Below, in pieces: positions 8,350 through 30,287 of a stretch of DNA of 64,000 bases. Position numbers and translations under genes: made by a program. The stretch covers positions 486,142-550,141 of the forward strand of contig NZ_JAJLRA010000001.1 of assembly GCF_020991365.1 (NCBI RefSeq), written 5' to 3'. The notes below the pieces were generated by a model that was given only the letters and a program-made list of their open reading frames with translations, had not been told where the DNA came from and ran no database searches. Each line of letters starts with the position of its first letter. Positions within the stretch are counted from its first letter, which is position 1. The stretch is from Streptacidiphilus sp. ASG 303 (lineage in GTDB: Bacteria > Actinomycetota > Actinomycetes > Streptomycetales > Streptomycetaceae).

Positions 8350-8422
8350 GCGGACGTGGCTCAGTTGGTAGAGCATCACCTTGCCAAGGTGAGGGTCGCG
8401 AGTTCGAATCTCGTCGTCCGCT
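8350..8422 (+). tRNA. tRNA-Gly (anticodon GCC)
   Basis: A 73-nt cloverleaf: acceptor GCGGACG with CGTCCGC, anticodon loop TTGCCAA giving GCC, and T arm GAGTTCGAATCTC. CCA is not encoded. It is the first gene of a five-tRNA plus-strand cluster. Confidence 0.97.
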
Positions 8423-8450
8423 CGGAGAAGGACCTCCGGGTCCTTCGCTC

Positions 8451-8524
8451 GGTGGAGTGGCCGAGAGGCGAGGCAACGGCCTGCAAAGCCGTCTACACGG
8501 GTTCAAATCCCGTCTCCACCTCCA
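8451..8524 (+). tRNA. tRNA-Cys (anticodon GCA)
   Basis: Acceptor GGTGGAG with CTCCACC, anticodon loop CTGCAAA giving GCA, and discriminator U73 (8521), the identity base of tRNA-Cys. Unlike its neighbours it encodes the 3' CCA (8522-8524). It follows tRNA-Gly by 28 bases and is probably cotranscribed with it. Confidence 0.97.
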
Positions 8525-8553
8525 TGGGGCACCCGGTTCTCCGGGGACCTCAA

Positions 8554-8625
<72 letters not shown>

Positions 8626-8693
8626 CCGGACCTCCGGGTCCGACGGTCGCGCCCCGGCGCGCACCACCCCGACGACCGGCACGCCGGCCGCCA

Positions 8694-8765
<72 letters not shown>

Positions 8766-8803
8766 CTCTGCACCAACCGTACGGCCGCTCCGGCGGGCGT
8801 CAC

Positions 8804-8875
<72 letters not shown>

Positions 8876-26958: not shown

Positions 26959-27795
26959 TCAGAAGGCCGGGACGACGGAGCCCTGGAAGGTGTCCTGGAT
27001 GTACTTCCTCACCTCGGGCGAGTGGAGCAGCTCGGCGAGCTTCCGCACGCGGGGGTCGTTCTCGTTCCCCTTCTTCACGGCGAGGATGTTGGCGTAGGGG
27101 TTGCCCTCGGCCTTCTCCAGGACGACGGCGTCGGTGGCGGGGCGGAGGCCCGCGTCGAGGGCGTAGTTGCCGTTGACGACGGCGGCGTCCACGTCGCCGA
27201 GGGAGCGGGGCAGCTGGGCGGCCTCCAGCTCCTTCCACCTGAGGTTCTTCGGGTTGCCGGTGACGTCGCGGACGGTGGCGGTGGTGCCGGCGCCGGCCCT
27301 GAGGGTGATGACGCCGTTGTCGGCGAGGAGCCTGAGGGCGCGGCCCTCGTTGGTGGCGTCGTTGGGGACGGCGACGGTGGCCCCGGCGGGCAGGTCGGCG
27401 ACCTTGCGGACCTTCTTCGAGTACAGGCCCAGCGGCTCCAGGTGGACGGACTCCACGGCGACGACGTCGGTGCCGCGCTGCTTGTCGAAGTCGTCCAGGT
27501 AGGGCCGGTGCTGGAAGAAGTTGGCGTCGGCCGAGCCGTCCTGCACGGCGGTGTTGGGGGTCACGTAGTCGGTGACCTCCTTGACCTCGAGCTTCAGGCC
27601 GGCCTTGGCGGCCAGGTGGTCCCTGACGTAGTCGAGGATGCGGGCGTGCGGGGTGGGACTGGCGGCGACGACCAGCGCGCGGTCGGCAGCGGCGGCGGAG
27701 CCGGACGACGAGGAGTCGCTGCCGCAGGCGGCCGTGGCCAGGGCGAGGGCGCCCGCGGTGAGGGTGGTGGCGGTGAGCTTGACGGCGTTGCGCAC
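26959..27795 (-). CDS. metQ: MetQ/NlpA substrate-binding lipoprotein
   Basis: A 278-residue lipoprotein. A 23-residue signal ends in the lipobox-like ATAAC, and a Ser-rich linker follows. The body is the NlpA fold, with DYVTPNTAVQDGSADANFFQHRPYL, VPNDATNEGRALRLL and GNYALDAGL. It should bind methionine or a close analogue outside the cell and deliver it to MetI-MetN. GTG 27795 is used, with GGAGAAAGG 9 bases upstream. It is the last gene of metN-metI-metQ, with a 12-bp hairpin in the 124-base gap before it. Confidence 0.92.
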   Translation of the reverse strand: MRNAVKLTATTLTAGALALATAACGSDSSSSGSAAAADRALVVAASPTPHARILDYVRDHLAAKAGLKLEVKEVTDYVTPNTAVQDGSADANFFQHRPYLDDFDKQRGTDVVAVESVHLEPLGLYSKKVRKVADLPAGATVAVPNDATNEGRALRLLADNGVITLRAGAGTTATVRDVTGNPKNLRWKELEAAQLPRSLGDVDAAVVNGNYALDAGLRPATDAVVLEKAEGNPYANILAVKKGNENDPRVRKLAELLHSPEVRKYIQDTFQGSVVPAF

Positions 27796-27919: not shown

Positions 27920-28744
27920 CTAGTGGGAGGCGGCCGGCTCCGGGACGGCGCCGCCGTCCTCGGAGGGACCGGCGGGCCCGGGGTCGGGCGTCCCCCCGCG
28001 GGGGGCGGTCCGCACGGCGTGCGGGGCCCGGGCGGTACGGACGGCTGCCGGGCGCCGCCGCAGCAGCCGGACCGGCCCGGAGCCGCGGCCGCGGTGCGCC
28101 AGGGCCCGCGCCGCGAGGTCGCCGAGCGCCTGGACGAGGGCCACCAGGAGGACCAGCTCGACCACGATGACGGTCATGAAGTCCGTCTCGAAGCGCATGT
28201 AGCCGTAGGTGTAGGCGAGGTTGCCCAGGCCGCCGCCGCCGACCGCGCCGGCCATCGCGGAGTAGCCGACCACCGCGATGACGGTGGTGGTCAGGCCCGC
28301 GACGAGGGACGGCAGCGCCTCGGGGACGAGGACCTTGCGCACCGCCGTCCAGGTGGAGCCGCCCATCGCCTGCACGGCCTCGACCAGGCCGCCGTCGACC
28401 TCCCGCACGGCGGTCTCCACCAGCCGGGCGAAGAAGGGGACGGCGCCGACGGCCAGCGGCACGGAGGCCGCCTGCCAGCCCAGCGAGGTGCCGACGACCC
28501 ACTTGGTGAACTGGGTGAGCGCCAGCATCAGGACGATGAACGGCAGCGAGCGGCCGACGTTGACGACCGCGCCGAGCACCCGGTTGACGGGACGGTTCTG
28601 CAGCAGCCCTCCCCGGTCGGTGAGGACGAGCAGCACGCCGGCCGGGAGACCGGCGAGCAGCGCGACCAGGGTGGCGGTGCCGACCATGGAGAGCGTCTCG
28701 CGGGTGGCGGTCAGGAGCAGGGGCTGCATCTCGGCCCAGGTCAT
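27920..28744 (-). CDS. metI: Methionine ABC transporter permease
   Basis: A 274-residue inner-membrane permease. The first 215 residues contain about five membrane helices and the EAA loop (EAVQAMGGSTWTAVRKVLVPEALP), which contacts the ATPase. The last 55 residues form a Pro/Arg-rich cytoplasmic tail that MetI of E. coli (217 residues) lacks. The ATG overlaps the metN stop codon by 4 bases (ATGA), so the two are translationally coupled. Confidence 0.92.
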   Translation of the reverse strand: MTWAEMQPLLLTATRETLSMVGTATLVALLAGLPAGVLLVLTDRGGLLQNRPVNRVLGAVVNVGRSLPFIVLMLALTQFTKWVVGTSLGWQAASVPLAVGAVPFFARLVETAVREVDGGLVEAVQAMGGSTWTAVRKVLVPEALPSLVAGLTTTVIAVVGYSAMAGAVGGGGLGNLAYTYGYMRFETDFMTVIVVELVLLVALVQALGDLAARALAHRGRGSGPVRLLRRRPAAVRTARAPHAVRTAPRGGTPDPGPAGPSEDGGAVPEPAASH

Positions 28745-29766
28745 GCGGCGTCCTCCGTACGGTCGGTGACGACGTCCACCAGCAGTCCCTGCTCGCGCAG
28801 GTAGCCGATGGGGACGGCGTTCTCGTCGTGGCGGCCCGGCAGCTCGATCCGCATCCGGCCGATCTGGCGGCCGCCGACGGTCTCCACGGCGGCGCCCAGG
28901 ATGCTGAGGTCGACGTGGTGGGTGCGGGCGAGCTGGGATACGAAGGGCCGGGCGGCGGTCTCCCCCGGGAAGGTGATGTCCAGGACGGTGGCGTCCGGGC
29001 GGCCCGCCGGGAGGTCCCCGAGGGGGAGGACCGCCCGGGCCAGCTCGGAGCCGGGGGTGGCGAGCAGGTCGGCGAGCCTGCCGGACTCGGTGATCCGGCC
29101 GCCGCGCATCAGCGCCGCCGAGTCGCAGACCGACGTGATGACGTCCATCTCGTGCGTGATCAGCAGGACGGTGAGGCCGAGGCGGCGGTTGAGGTCGCGC
29201 AGCAGCTCCAGGATCGACCGGGTGGTCTCCGGGTCGAGGGCGGAGGTGGCCTCGTCGGAGAGGAGCACCTTGGGGTCCCCGGCCAGGGCGCGGGCGATGC
29301 CCACGCGCTGCTTCTGGCCGCCGGAGAGCTGGGCGGGGTAGGCGCCGGCCTTGTCGGCGAGCCCGACCAGGTCGAGCAGGTCGCCCGCCCTGCGGCGGCG
29401 CTCGGTGCGGTCCAGGCCCATGATCTCCAGCGGCAGCTCGACGTTGTCGCGGACGGTGCGCGAGGAGAGCAGGTTGAAGTGCTGGAAGACCATGCCGATG
29501 CTGCGGCGGGCGGCGCGCAGCCCCCGGCCGGCGCGGGGGCCGCGGCCGGCCAGGGCGGTCAGCTCCAGGCCGTCGACGGTGACGGTGCCGGAGGTGGGCC
29601 GCTCCAGCATGTTGACGCAGCGCACGAGCGTGGACTTGCCGGCGCCGCTGGTGCCGACGACGCCGTACACCTCGCCCTCCTGCACGTGCAGGTCGACGCC
29701 GTCGAGGGCGGTGACGTCGCGGCCTCGGACGCGGTAGGTCTTCCTCAGGTCTGCGGTGGTGATCAT
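28741..29766 (-). CDS. metN: Methionine ABC transporter ATPase
   Basis: A 341-residue ABC ATPase. It shows Walker A GTSGAGKST, the signature LSGGQKQRVGIARAL, and Walker B VLLSDEATSALD. The C-terminal NIL domain (about 265-341) is the allosteric methionine sensor that closes the transporter when methionine is plentiful. It is the first gene of the transporter operon. ATG 29766 has only a weak ribosome site; upstream lie 360 bases and then a short Cys/Met-rich peptide gene on the same strand. Confidence 0.93.
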   Translation of the reverse strand: MITTADLRKTYRVRGRDVTALDGVDLHVQEGEVYGVVGTSGAGKSTLVRCVNMLERPTSGTVTVDGLELTALAGRGPRAGRGLRAARRSIGMVFQHFNLLSSRTVRDNVELPLEIMGLDRTERRRRAGDLLDLVGLADKAGAYPAQLSGGQKQRVGIARALAGDPKVLLSDEATSALDPETTRSILELLRDLNRRLGLTVLLITHEMDVITSVCDSAALMRGGRITESGRLADLLATPGSELARAVLPLGDLPAGRPDATVLDITFPGETAARPFVSQLARTHHVDLSILGAAVETVGGRQIGRMRIELPGRHDENAVPIGYLREQGLLVDVVTDRTEDAA

Positions 29767-30125
29767 CAGGTCTGGTCCACGGGTCGGGCGCACGGCGGCT
29801 CGGGGCCGCGGCGCGGGGCGTGCTGATGCCGGGAAGGGGGCGCCGGGAGGGGGTGCCGGGGAGGGGCGGAGCAGCGGGGCTCCGGCCCTGCCGTGCCGTG
29901 CCGGGGTGCGGACGCGGGCGTCCGCGGCGCGGCGGGCTCAGCGGCGGCGTGCTCCGGGGGGCTGCGCACGGCGGGCGGCCCTGCGGCGGAGGACGGCGGC
30001 CGGGCGGAGGCGGGGCGCGCGGAGGGGGGTGAGGTCCAGGTGCATGTCAGGAGGGGGCAGGGCGCCGGCCGGTGCGGCGGCGCGCGGGGGTCTCGCTTCG
30101 GGGCGCGAGGCTGGTACGGGGACCC
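29767..30125 (-). other. Leader region between the Cys-rich peptide and metN
   Basis: A 359-base stretch that would be the metN 5' leader. Directly after the peptide stop are small hairpins: CTCGC/GCGAG (30092-30109) and a GCGCCG/CGGCGC stem just below it. These could act as alternative structures in attenuation. A 35-codon frame here (starting MHLDLTPL) has no ribosome site and I do not call it. Confidence 0.4.
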
Positions 30126-30209
30126 TCAGCAGGCACACATTCGACGGCACAGGGCACGACCGGCTGCCGGCGCGGTGCCGGCGGGAATGCGGTGTGTCGT
30201 CGTGGTCAT
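30126..30209 (-). CDS. Putative Cys/Met leader peptide of metNIQ
   Basis: A 27-codon frame starting ATG ACC ACG ACG and ending in ALCRRMCAC followed by TGA. Three of the last seven codons are Cys and one is Met, in a gene that otherwise lacks both apart from the start. Short peptides ending in Cys codons are known in actinobacteria as ribosome-mediated attenuators of sulfur genes, so stalling here when charged tRNA-Cys is scarce could expose the metN leader. There is no ribosome site. A weak TTTACT box (30217-30222) 7 bases before the ATG would fit a leaderless mRNA. This is inferred, not shown. Confidence 0.5.
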   Translation of the reverse strand: MTTTTHRIPAGTAPAAGRALCRRMCAC

Positions 30210-30287
30210 GGGCCCCAGTAAACCAGACGGGCGATCTGCTGCCCACATACCGGCCCCGGATGTCCGCATGGCGGACAGGGGCGCGGC

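Follow-up and report, generated by a model that had tools for sequence, protein, structure and literature searches.

The leader and the operon at the metNIQ locus

The window, a stretch of 64,000 nucleotides from Streptacidiphilus sp. ASG 303, carries a methionine import operon, metNIQ, on its minus strand (Table 1). The start of metN was placed at the ATG at 29766 because relatives begin with GTG or ATG followed by ATC at the same place, and on this comparison the longer start proposed by the open reading frame tool, GTG 29793, is unlikely. In the genomes G033 and G039, two neighbouring metQ-like genes (PF03180) were seen beside the metNIQ locus. Elsewhere in the window, five tRNA genes are clustered inside 530 nt (8350..8875, plus strand).

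Table 1. Features of the metNIQ locus, in window coordinates.
Feature	Position	Strand	Remarks
Palindrome TGTCCGC-CAT-GCGGACA (perfect), candidate operator	30261..30277	.	52-68 nt before the ATG of the leader
-10 box TTTACT of the putative leaderless promoter	30217..30222	-	7 nt upstream of the ATG; preceding TGG makes an extended -10
Leader ORF, metL orthologue	30126..30209	-	27 codons, MTTTTHRIPAGTAPAAGRALCRRMCAC then stop; orthologues upstream of metN
P1 5' strand CGACG (Thr-Thr codons)	30198..30202	-	fold of the window leader
P1 3' strand CGTCG, adjoining AATGTG	30142..30146	-	fold of the window leader
Control-codon tail TGC CGT CGA ATG TGT GCC TGC TGA	30126..30149	-	C-R-R-M-C-A-C-stop
Near-invariant dicodon CGA-ATG (Arg-Met)	30138..30143	-	135/135 loci
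Post-stop leader, candidate Rho-loading region	29767..30125	-	359 nt, 54.6% C, 29.2% G
Conserved hairpin CTCGC-GCCCCGAA-GCGAG	30092..30109	-	downstream of the leader stop
Counterpart of hairpin P6, shortly before the metN start region	29789..29815	-	window: folding only; relatives: corresponding hairpin with changing pair types
metN, ATPase of the methionine ABC transporter, with NIL domain; putatively controlled gene	28741..29766	-	TIGR02314 361 bits, below cut-off 499.7; PF09383 above cut-off
metI, permease	27920..28744	-	NF008049 210.6 bits against cut-off 212
metQ, MetQ/NlpA lipoprotein domain	26962..27675	-	PF03180, E 8e-93 (G000:C111:513103-513816)

The first-pass annotation had described a frame of 27 codons ending in ALCRRMCAC, 360 bases before metN. 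The frame was present as claimed, from ATG to TGA, and the distance was measured as 359 nt. The first 15 codons were ATG ACC ACG ACG ACA CAC CGC ATT CCC GCC GGC ACC GCG CCG GCA, followed from codon 16 to the stop by GCC GGT CGT GCC CTG TGC CGT CGA ATG TGT GCC TGC TGA. The last seven residues of the peptide comprised three cysteines and one methionine, while the earlier residues, the start Met excepted, included neither. That such an end is far from chance, as had been asserted, was borne out by two counts: 1) the window has 144 ATG frames with lengths of 10-45 codons, and none but this frame and its own longer version had at least three Cys in the last seven residues, and 2) in order-3 Markov sequence such an end occurred in 2 of 2338 frames, neither of which had a Met.

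The spacing of the upstream box, 7 bases, was also as first reported, but the box is more than the weak element that it had been taken for, being conserved in the family. A TTTA lies about 12 nt upstream of the leader start in nearly all relatives, with shifts of 1-2 nt (135 parsed loci), and for the S. lividans orthologue the passages of PMC8079986 on this gene report a leaderless start mapped by RNA-seq. The proposal of a leaderless start gained support from the spacing of the box, its retention in relatives and the mapped start, and by this comparison transcription in the window would begin at or next to the ATG.

Conservation of the leader, its tail and the CGA-ATG dicodon

The leader was present in nearly all examined relatives having metNIQ. 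In all 15 Streptomycetaceae metN loci that were collected by protein similarity, the leader frame was found 159-239 nt upstream of metN. The exact pattern CRRMCA[C/F] occurred in only 5 of 298 Streptomycetaceae genomes because the length of the tail varies, so a profile of 18 peptides was used instead; the window peptide was among the 18 and the other genomes were independent. The profile gave a single match per genome in 217 of the 298, and further divergent leaders were found beyond these. Neither Pfam nor NCBIfam had a model for the leader peptide.

The parsed set consisted of the 135 loci with metN downstream. There the start codon was always ATG and the end always R-M-[C/R]-x0-2-stop, with at least two Cys and at least one internal Met at every locus. 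The last Met was invariant (135/135) and was followed by Arg instead of Cys in 14 of the 135. Frame lengths overall ranged from 26 to 50 codons. Across the family the tail C-R-M-[C/R] was stable and the N-terminus divergent; in genera g2-g5 the N-terminus was unrelated (e.g. MFTTAHISGTAATATGCRCMCRSCQMCRMCGC) and the tail was nevertheless kept. The earlier supposition that a leader peptide precedes metNIQ was upheld by these comparisons. So was the conservation of the end of the peptide, not the rest, which had been proposed as a check, and the absence of the frame or its Cys codons from relatives, named in advance as a refutation, was not what was seen.

When 32 genomes were checked individually, metQ scored above the family cut-off in 23, and an intact leader, recognised by the profile, the downstream hairpin or inspection, was present in 22 of them; the profile had no match in the metQ-less genomes (0/8). 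The one metQ-bearing exception (G046) retained the tail with no visible start. At this locus (L275), CGT ATG TGT CGA ATG TGT GCC TGA was kept about 190 nt upstream of metN, with no ATG or TTTACT at the usual place, and the leader has possibly decayed or been re-promoted.

The hairpin that the first-pass annotation saw after the frame was real and was conserved in relatives, loop included. An exact match to CTCGCGCCCCGAAGCGAG was present in 28 of 61 family genomes, one copy in each and always beside a metL-type leader. The loop may contact the GGGC immediately after the leader stop. A frame-blind search with the DNA pattern of this hairpin returned 28 loci, and in all of them the frame was intact from ATG to stop and had R-M-[C/R]-x-x as its end. 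The frames found in this way had 26-37 codons and all differences in length were multiples of three, and in the 135 parsed loci the stop codon differed between leaders. The in-frame length changes and varied stop codons therefore argue for translation.

Leaders were also found in other actinobacterial families. In eight loci of a family of the same class (f19; L297-L301, L303-L305), leader ORFs preceded metQ and had tails with several Met and Cys, e.g. one ending in GRGMSMCPMRMRRCR; six of the eight contained CGA-ATG. In family f17, one genome had VMCRGTRMCGTARMCAMGGMPSMR before metN. At the f17 loci L279 and L280, metN comes just after another, different short frame with the end LRR..HLPF.PGTR, and at L280 this frame is itself preceded by a Met/Cys-rich one, MTPQGRVMCRGTRMCGTARMCAMGGMPSMR. 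No convincing leader was found at the similarity-collected metN loci of Agrococcus, Corynebacterium, Nocardia and other actinobacteria.

CGA was the Arg codon preceding the last Met at 135/135 parsed loci, and the same held for 13/13 divergent leaders, the majority of them lacking the Streptomyces RNA structures. The sole exceptions observed, two leaders of genus g14 in the hairpin-found set, had CGC. In the metN genes of the 135 loci, which served as the codon usage reference, CGA made up 1.6% of the Arg codons and never preceded Met (0/83). As far as these sequences go, pairing is no explanation for the conservation of CGA. The codon is decoded by an inosine tRNA-Arg, according to the passage of PMC3711424 that deals with it. 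We suppose that CGA may slow decoding beside the sensor codon.

Structure of the leader RNA and the putative read-out

In Streptomyces, the initial codons ACG ACG AGC pair with GCT CGT TGT before the tail to form helix P1, which encloses P2 and P3. Pairing reached 97.7% of the P1-P3 cells in 96 distinct sequences, as against 25-47% in slid controls, and there were 20 double changes compared with a shuffle maximum of 8. The change of AGC to AAC accompanies that of GCT to GTT, so that Ser to Asn accompanies Ala to Val because the codons pair, although this co-change counts as few events because it is common to related genera. The pairing of P1-P3 also accounts for the odd T-ending codons; TGT makes up 62% of the Cys codons in the leaders versus 1.4% in metN. 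Because RNA pairing explains the conservation of GGT GCT CGT TGT, the Cys conservation seen in Streptomyces cannot all be counted in favour of Cys as the amino acid. For the window, a variant of P1 (CGACG/CGTCG) is predicted by folding, the covariation statistics being those of the Streptomyces version.

Downstream, a Streptomyces hairpin with changing pair types ends directly before the conserved TCGACAGTGACGGAA at the metN start, the pairs being taken from single-sequence folds. Another helix, P4, in which the tail (TGTCGA-AT-GTGCGC) would pair with GCGCAC-TCGACA before metN, was convincing in single folds, but its covariation was no better than that of shuffles, and its GCGCAC is part of a local hairpin with changing pairs. 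P4 was retained as a possibility only. With regard to the mutually exclusive helices of a classical attenuator, P1-P3 was thus supported, whereas the competing P4 lacked covariation support.

No intrinsic terminator, i.e. a G+C-rich hairpin with a U-run, was found between the leader ORF and metN, and no covariance model of Rfam 15 gave a relevant match to the leader, a permissive threshold included. The post-stop leaders of the 135 loci had on average 45% C and 28% G, compared with 39% C and 35% G in an upstream control, and C exceeded G in every one. A Rho-dependent attenuator calls for a C-rich, G-poor stretch after the leader stop, and this is what was found; such a composition suits Rho. 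The read-out would be by Rho-dependent termination or by blocked initiation of metN, and is the weakest step of the model.

The proposed attenuator, its alternatives and known systems

We consider it probable that the leader is a ribosome-sensing, leader-peptide attenuator of metNIQ that reads Met and Cys. The ribosome would translate the 27-codon frame, opening the hairpin between the first codons and those before the tail. A shortage of charged Met-tRNA or Cys-tRNA would make the ribosome stall on the Cys-Arg(CGA)-Met-Cys tail, a pause that is probably sharpened by the slow CGA directly before AUG, and metNIQ would be expressed. With ample Met and Cys, the ribosome would reach the stop and depart, leaving the C-rich leader bare, and expression would be cut, Rho-dependent termination or structure at the metN start being the most likely means. 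The ribosome stall, the identity of the sensed amino acid and the read-out mechanism were each deduced from sequence.

The first-pass annotation had arrived at the same kind of mechanism, a leader-peptide attenuator, but its attribution to cysteine was too narrow. The final Met was present in 135/135 loci, compared with the replacement of the following Cys by Arg in 14/135, and tails in the second family have several Met. A response to cysteine supply alone is unsupported because invariance is greatest at the Met codon and Met-rich leaders precede metQ in another family. The best reading of the alignments is a sulfur amino-acid sensor for which Met would be at least as important as Cys.

A more specific suggestion, which we put forward tentatively and think unlikely to hold, is that CGA-AUG is a codon-level stall amplifier: with the inosine-decoded CGA in the P-site, decoding of AUG would become unusually dependent on charged Met-tRNA, one Met codon would be enough as a sensor, and at least two actinobacterial families would use the same device ahead of their methionine-transporter genes. 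Conservation of the dicodon makes the loosely framed idea of a Met/Cys attenuator sharply testable. If codon decoding is the sensor, rather than the peptide or the shape of the RNA, a single synonymous base change should alter regulation.

Several other explanations of the leader were considered. The one that survives best, though we regard it as improbable, is an arrest peptide, in which the frame would be unchanged but nascent C-R-M-C near the stop, not codon starvation, would stall the ribosome in response to a small molecule (Met, SAM or Cys) and the sensor would be the exit tunnel or the peptidyl-transferase centre. The position of R-M-[C/R], 2-3 residues from the stop in 135/135 loci with a varying number of residues before it, is in keeping with arrest, as is the retention of the dicodon in very divergent leaders. 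Peptide chemistry does not, however, require that the Arg be kept as CGA, and the additional Cys and Met codons that accumulate in several tails also speak against arrest.

The covariation raises the prospect of a metabolite riboswitch, with P1-P3 and the CTCGCGCCCCGAAGCGAG hairpin as the aptamer and the open frame incidental. A conserved RNA junction with compensatory changes, a conserved hairpin loop and the T-ending codons explained by pairing are all features that such an element would share. An incidental frame would hardly be intact in 28/28 loci found without regard to it, always in frame at 26-37 codons and with a varying stop codon, nor would the N-terminal sequence of g2-g5 diverge while the tail stays; no Rfam family was matched, and we rate a riboswitch as quite improbable.

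A functional small protein, e.g. a Cys-rich metal or redox peptide, in place of a disposable sensor would account for several Cys and a conserved C-terminus, yet the N-terminus is nearly free to change, the Ser/Asn and Ala/Val co-change comes from codon pairing and the length runs from 26 to 50 codons, which together make it very hard to credit. A metal-binding peptide and a bystander frame were rejected because of the pattern of variation.

That a DNA-binding protein controls metNIQ from the upstream palindrome, the leader merely tuning basal expression, seems equally remote, for although TGTCCG-N0-6-CGGACA occurs within -160..-25 at 42 of 135 loci and in none of 135 metN stretches of equal length, with arms that are longer in many Streptomyces (up to 12 bp), it leaves the conserved frame and tail unexplained and a palindrome can coexist with an attenuator.

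To our knowledge, methionine and cysteine sensing in streptomycetes is largely unmapped. Control of methionine uptake by the leader attenuator is likely to be general in the family because nearly all of its examined importer-bearing members have retained the leader.

Several known systems resemble the window leader in part. The SAM-IV, Streptomyces-metH and Streptomyces-metK RNAs are likewise 5' leader RNAs before Streptomyces methionine genes, but the window has a translated frame instead and no Rfam match. The Streptomyces trp, ilv and leu attenuators, as described in the relevant parts of PMC8079986 and PMC1262725, share with it a short leader ORF, control codons near the end and downstream hairpins; for trpE and ilv these passages report U-rich terminators, of which the window has none.

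Cys leader peptides were predicted before mycobacterial cys operons (Seliverstov et al. 2005, PMC1262725), and Cys-dependent regulation at these operons was shown by Canestrari et al. 2020, as cited in PMC9031893 and PMC13236596. The mycobacterial parallel drawn in the first-pass annotation stood in style but not in detail. As far as these accounts go, the polycysteine ORFs are short and leaderless, as the window frame would be, with Cys codons near the stop and no clear terminator; they have contiguous Cys and precede cysteine genes, whereas the Cys codons of the window are interspersed with Met and Arg before a methionine importer. A contiguous run of Cys before the stop was absent in the window, and CC occurred only in a few relatives. 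The comparison suggests that the reading of sulfur amino acids by leaderless leader ORFs extends beyond the cys operons of mycobacteria.

The closest counterpart is metL (SLIV_29928) of S. lividans TK24, for which Droste et al. 2021 (PMC8079986), in the passages on this gene, give MSTTSDRTPATEATTTPGARCMCRRMCAF as a leaderless frame before metNIQ observed by RNA-seq, and read it, from one genome and with the terminator unclear, as a methionine(/threonine) attenuator. Like metL, the window frame is a short same-strand ORF directly upstream of metN, encodes a homologous peptide with the tail C-R-(R)-M-C (ending in GARCMCRRMCAF in S. lividans and GRALCRRMCAC in the window) and has no Rho-independent terminator; compared with the metL peptide given there, its N-terminus is divergent and it has only one internal Met. 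Judged by position and sequence, the window frame is the metL orthologue and the type of control is one already published. Beyond those passages of PMC8079986, which mention neither the dicodon nor the hairpin, the present analysis adds the hairpin constraint, the CGA-ATG dicodon and conservation of the leader throughout the family.
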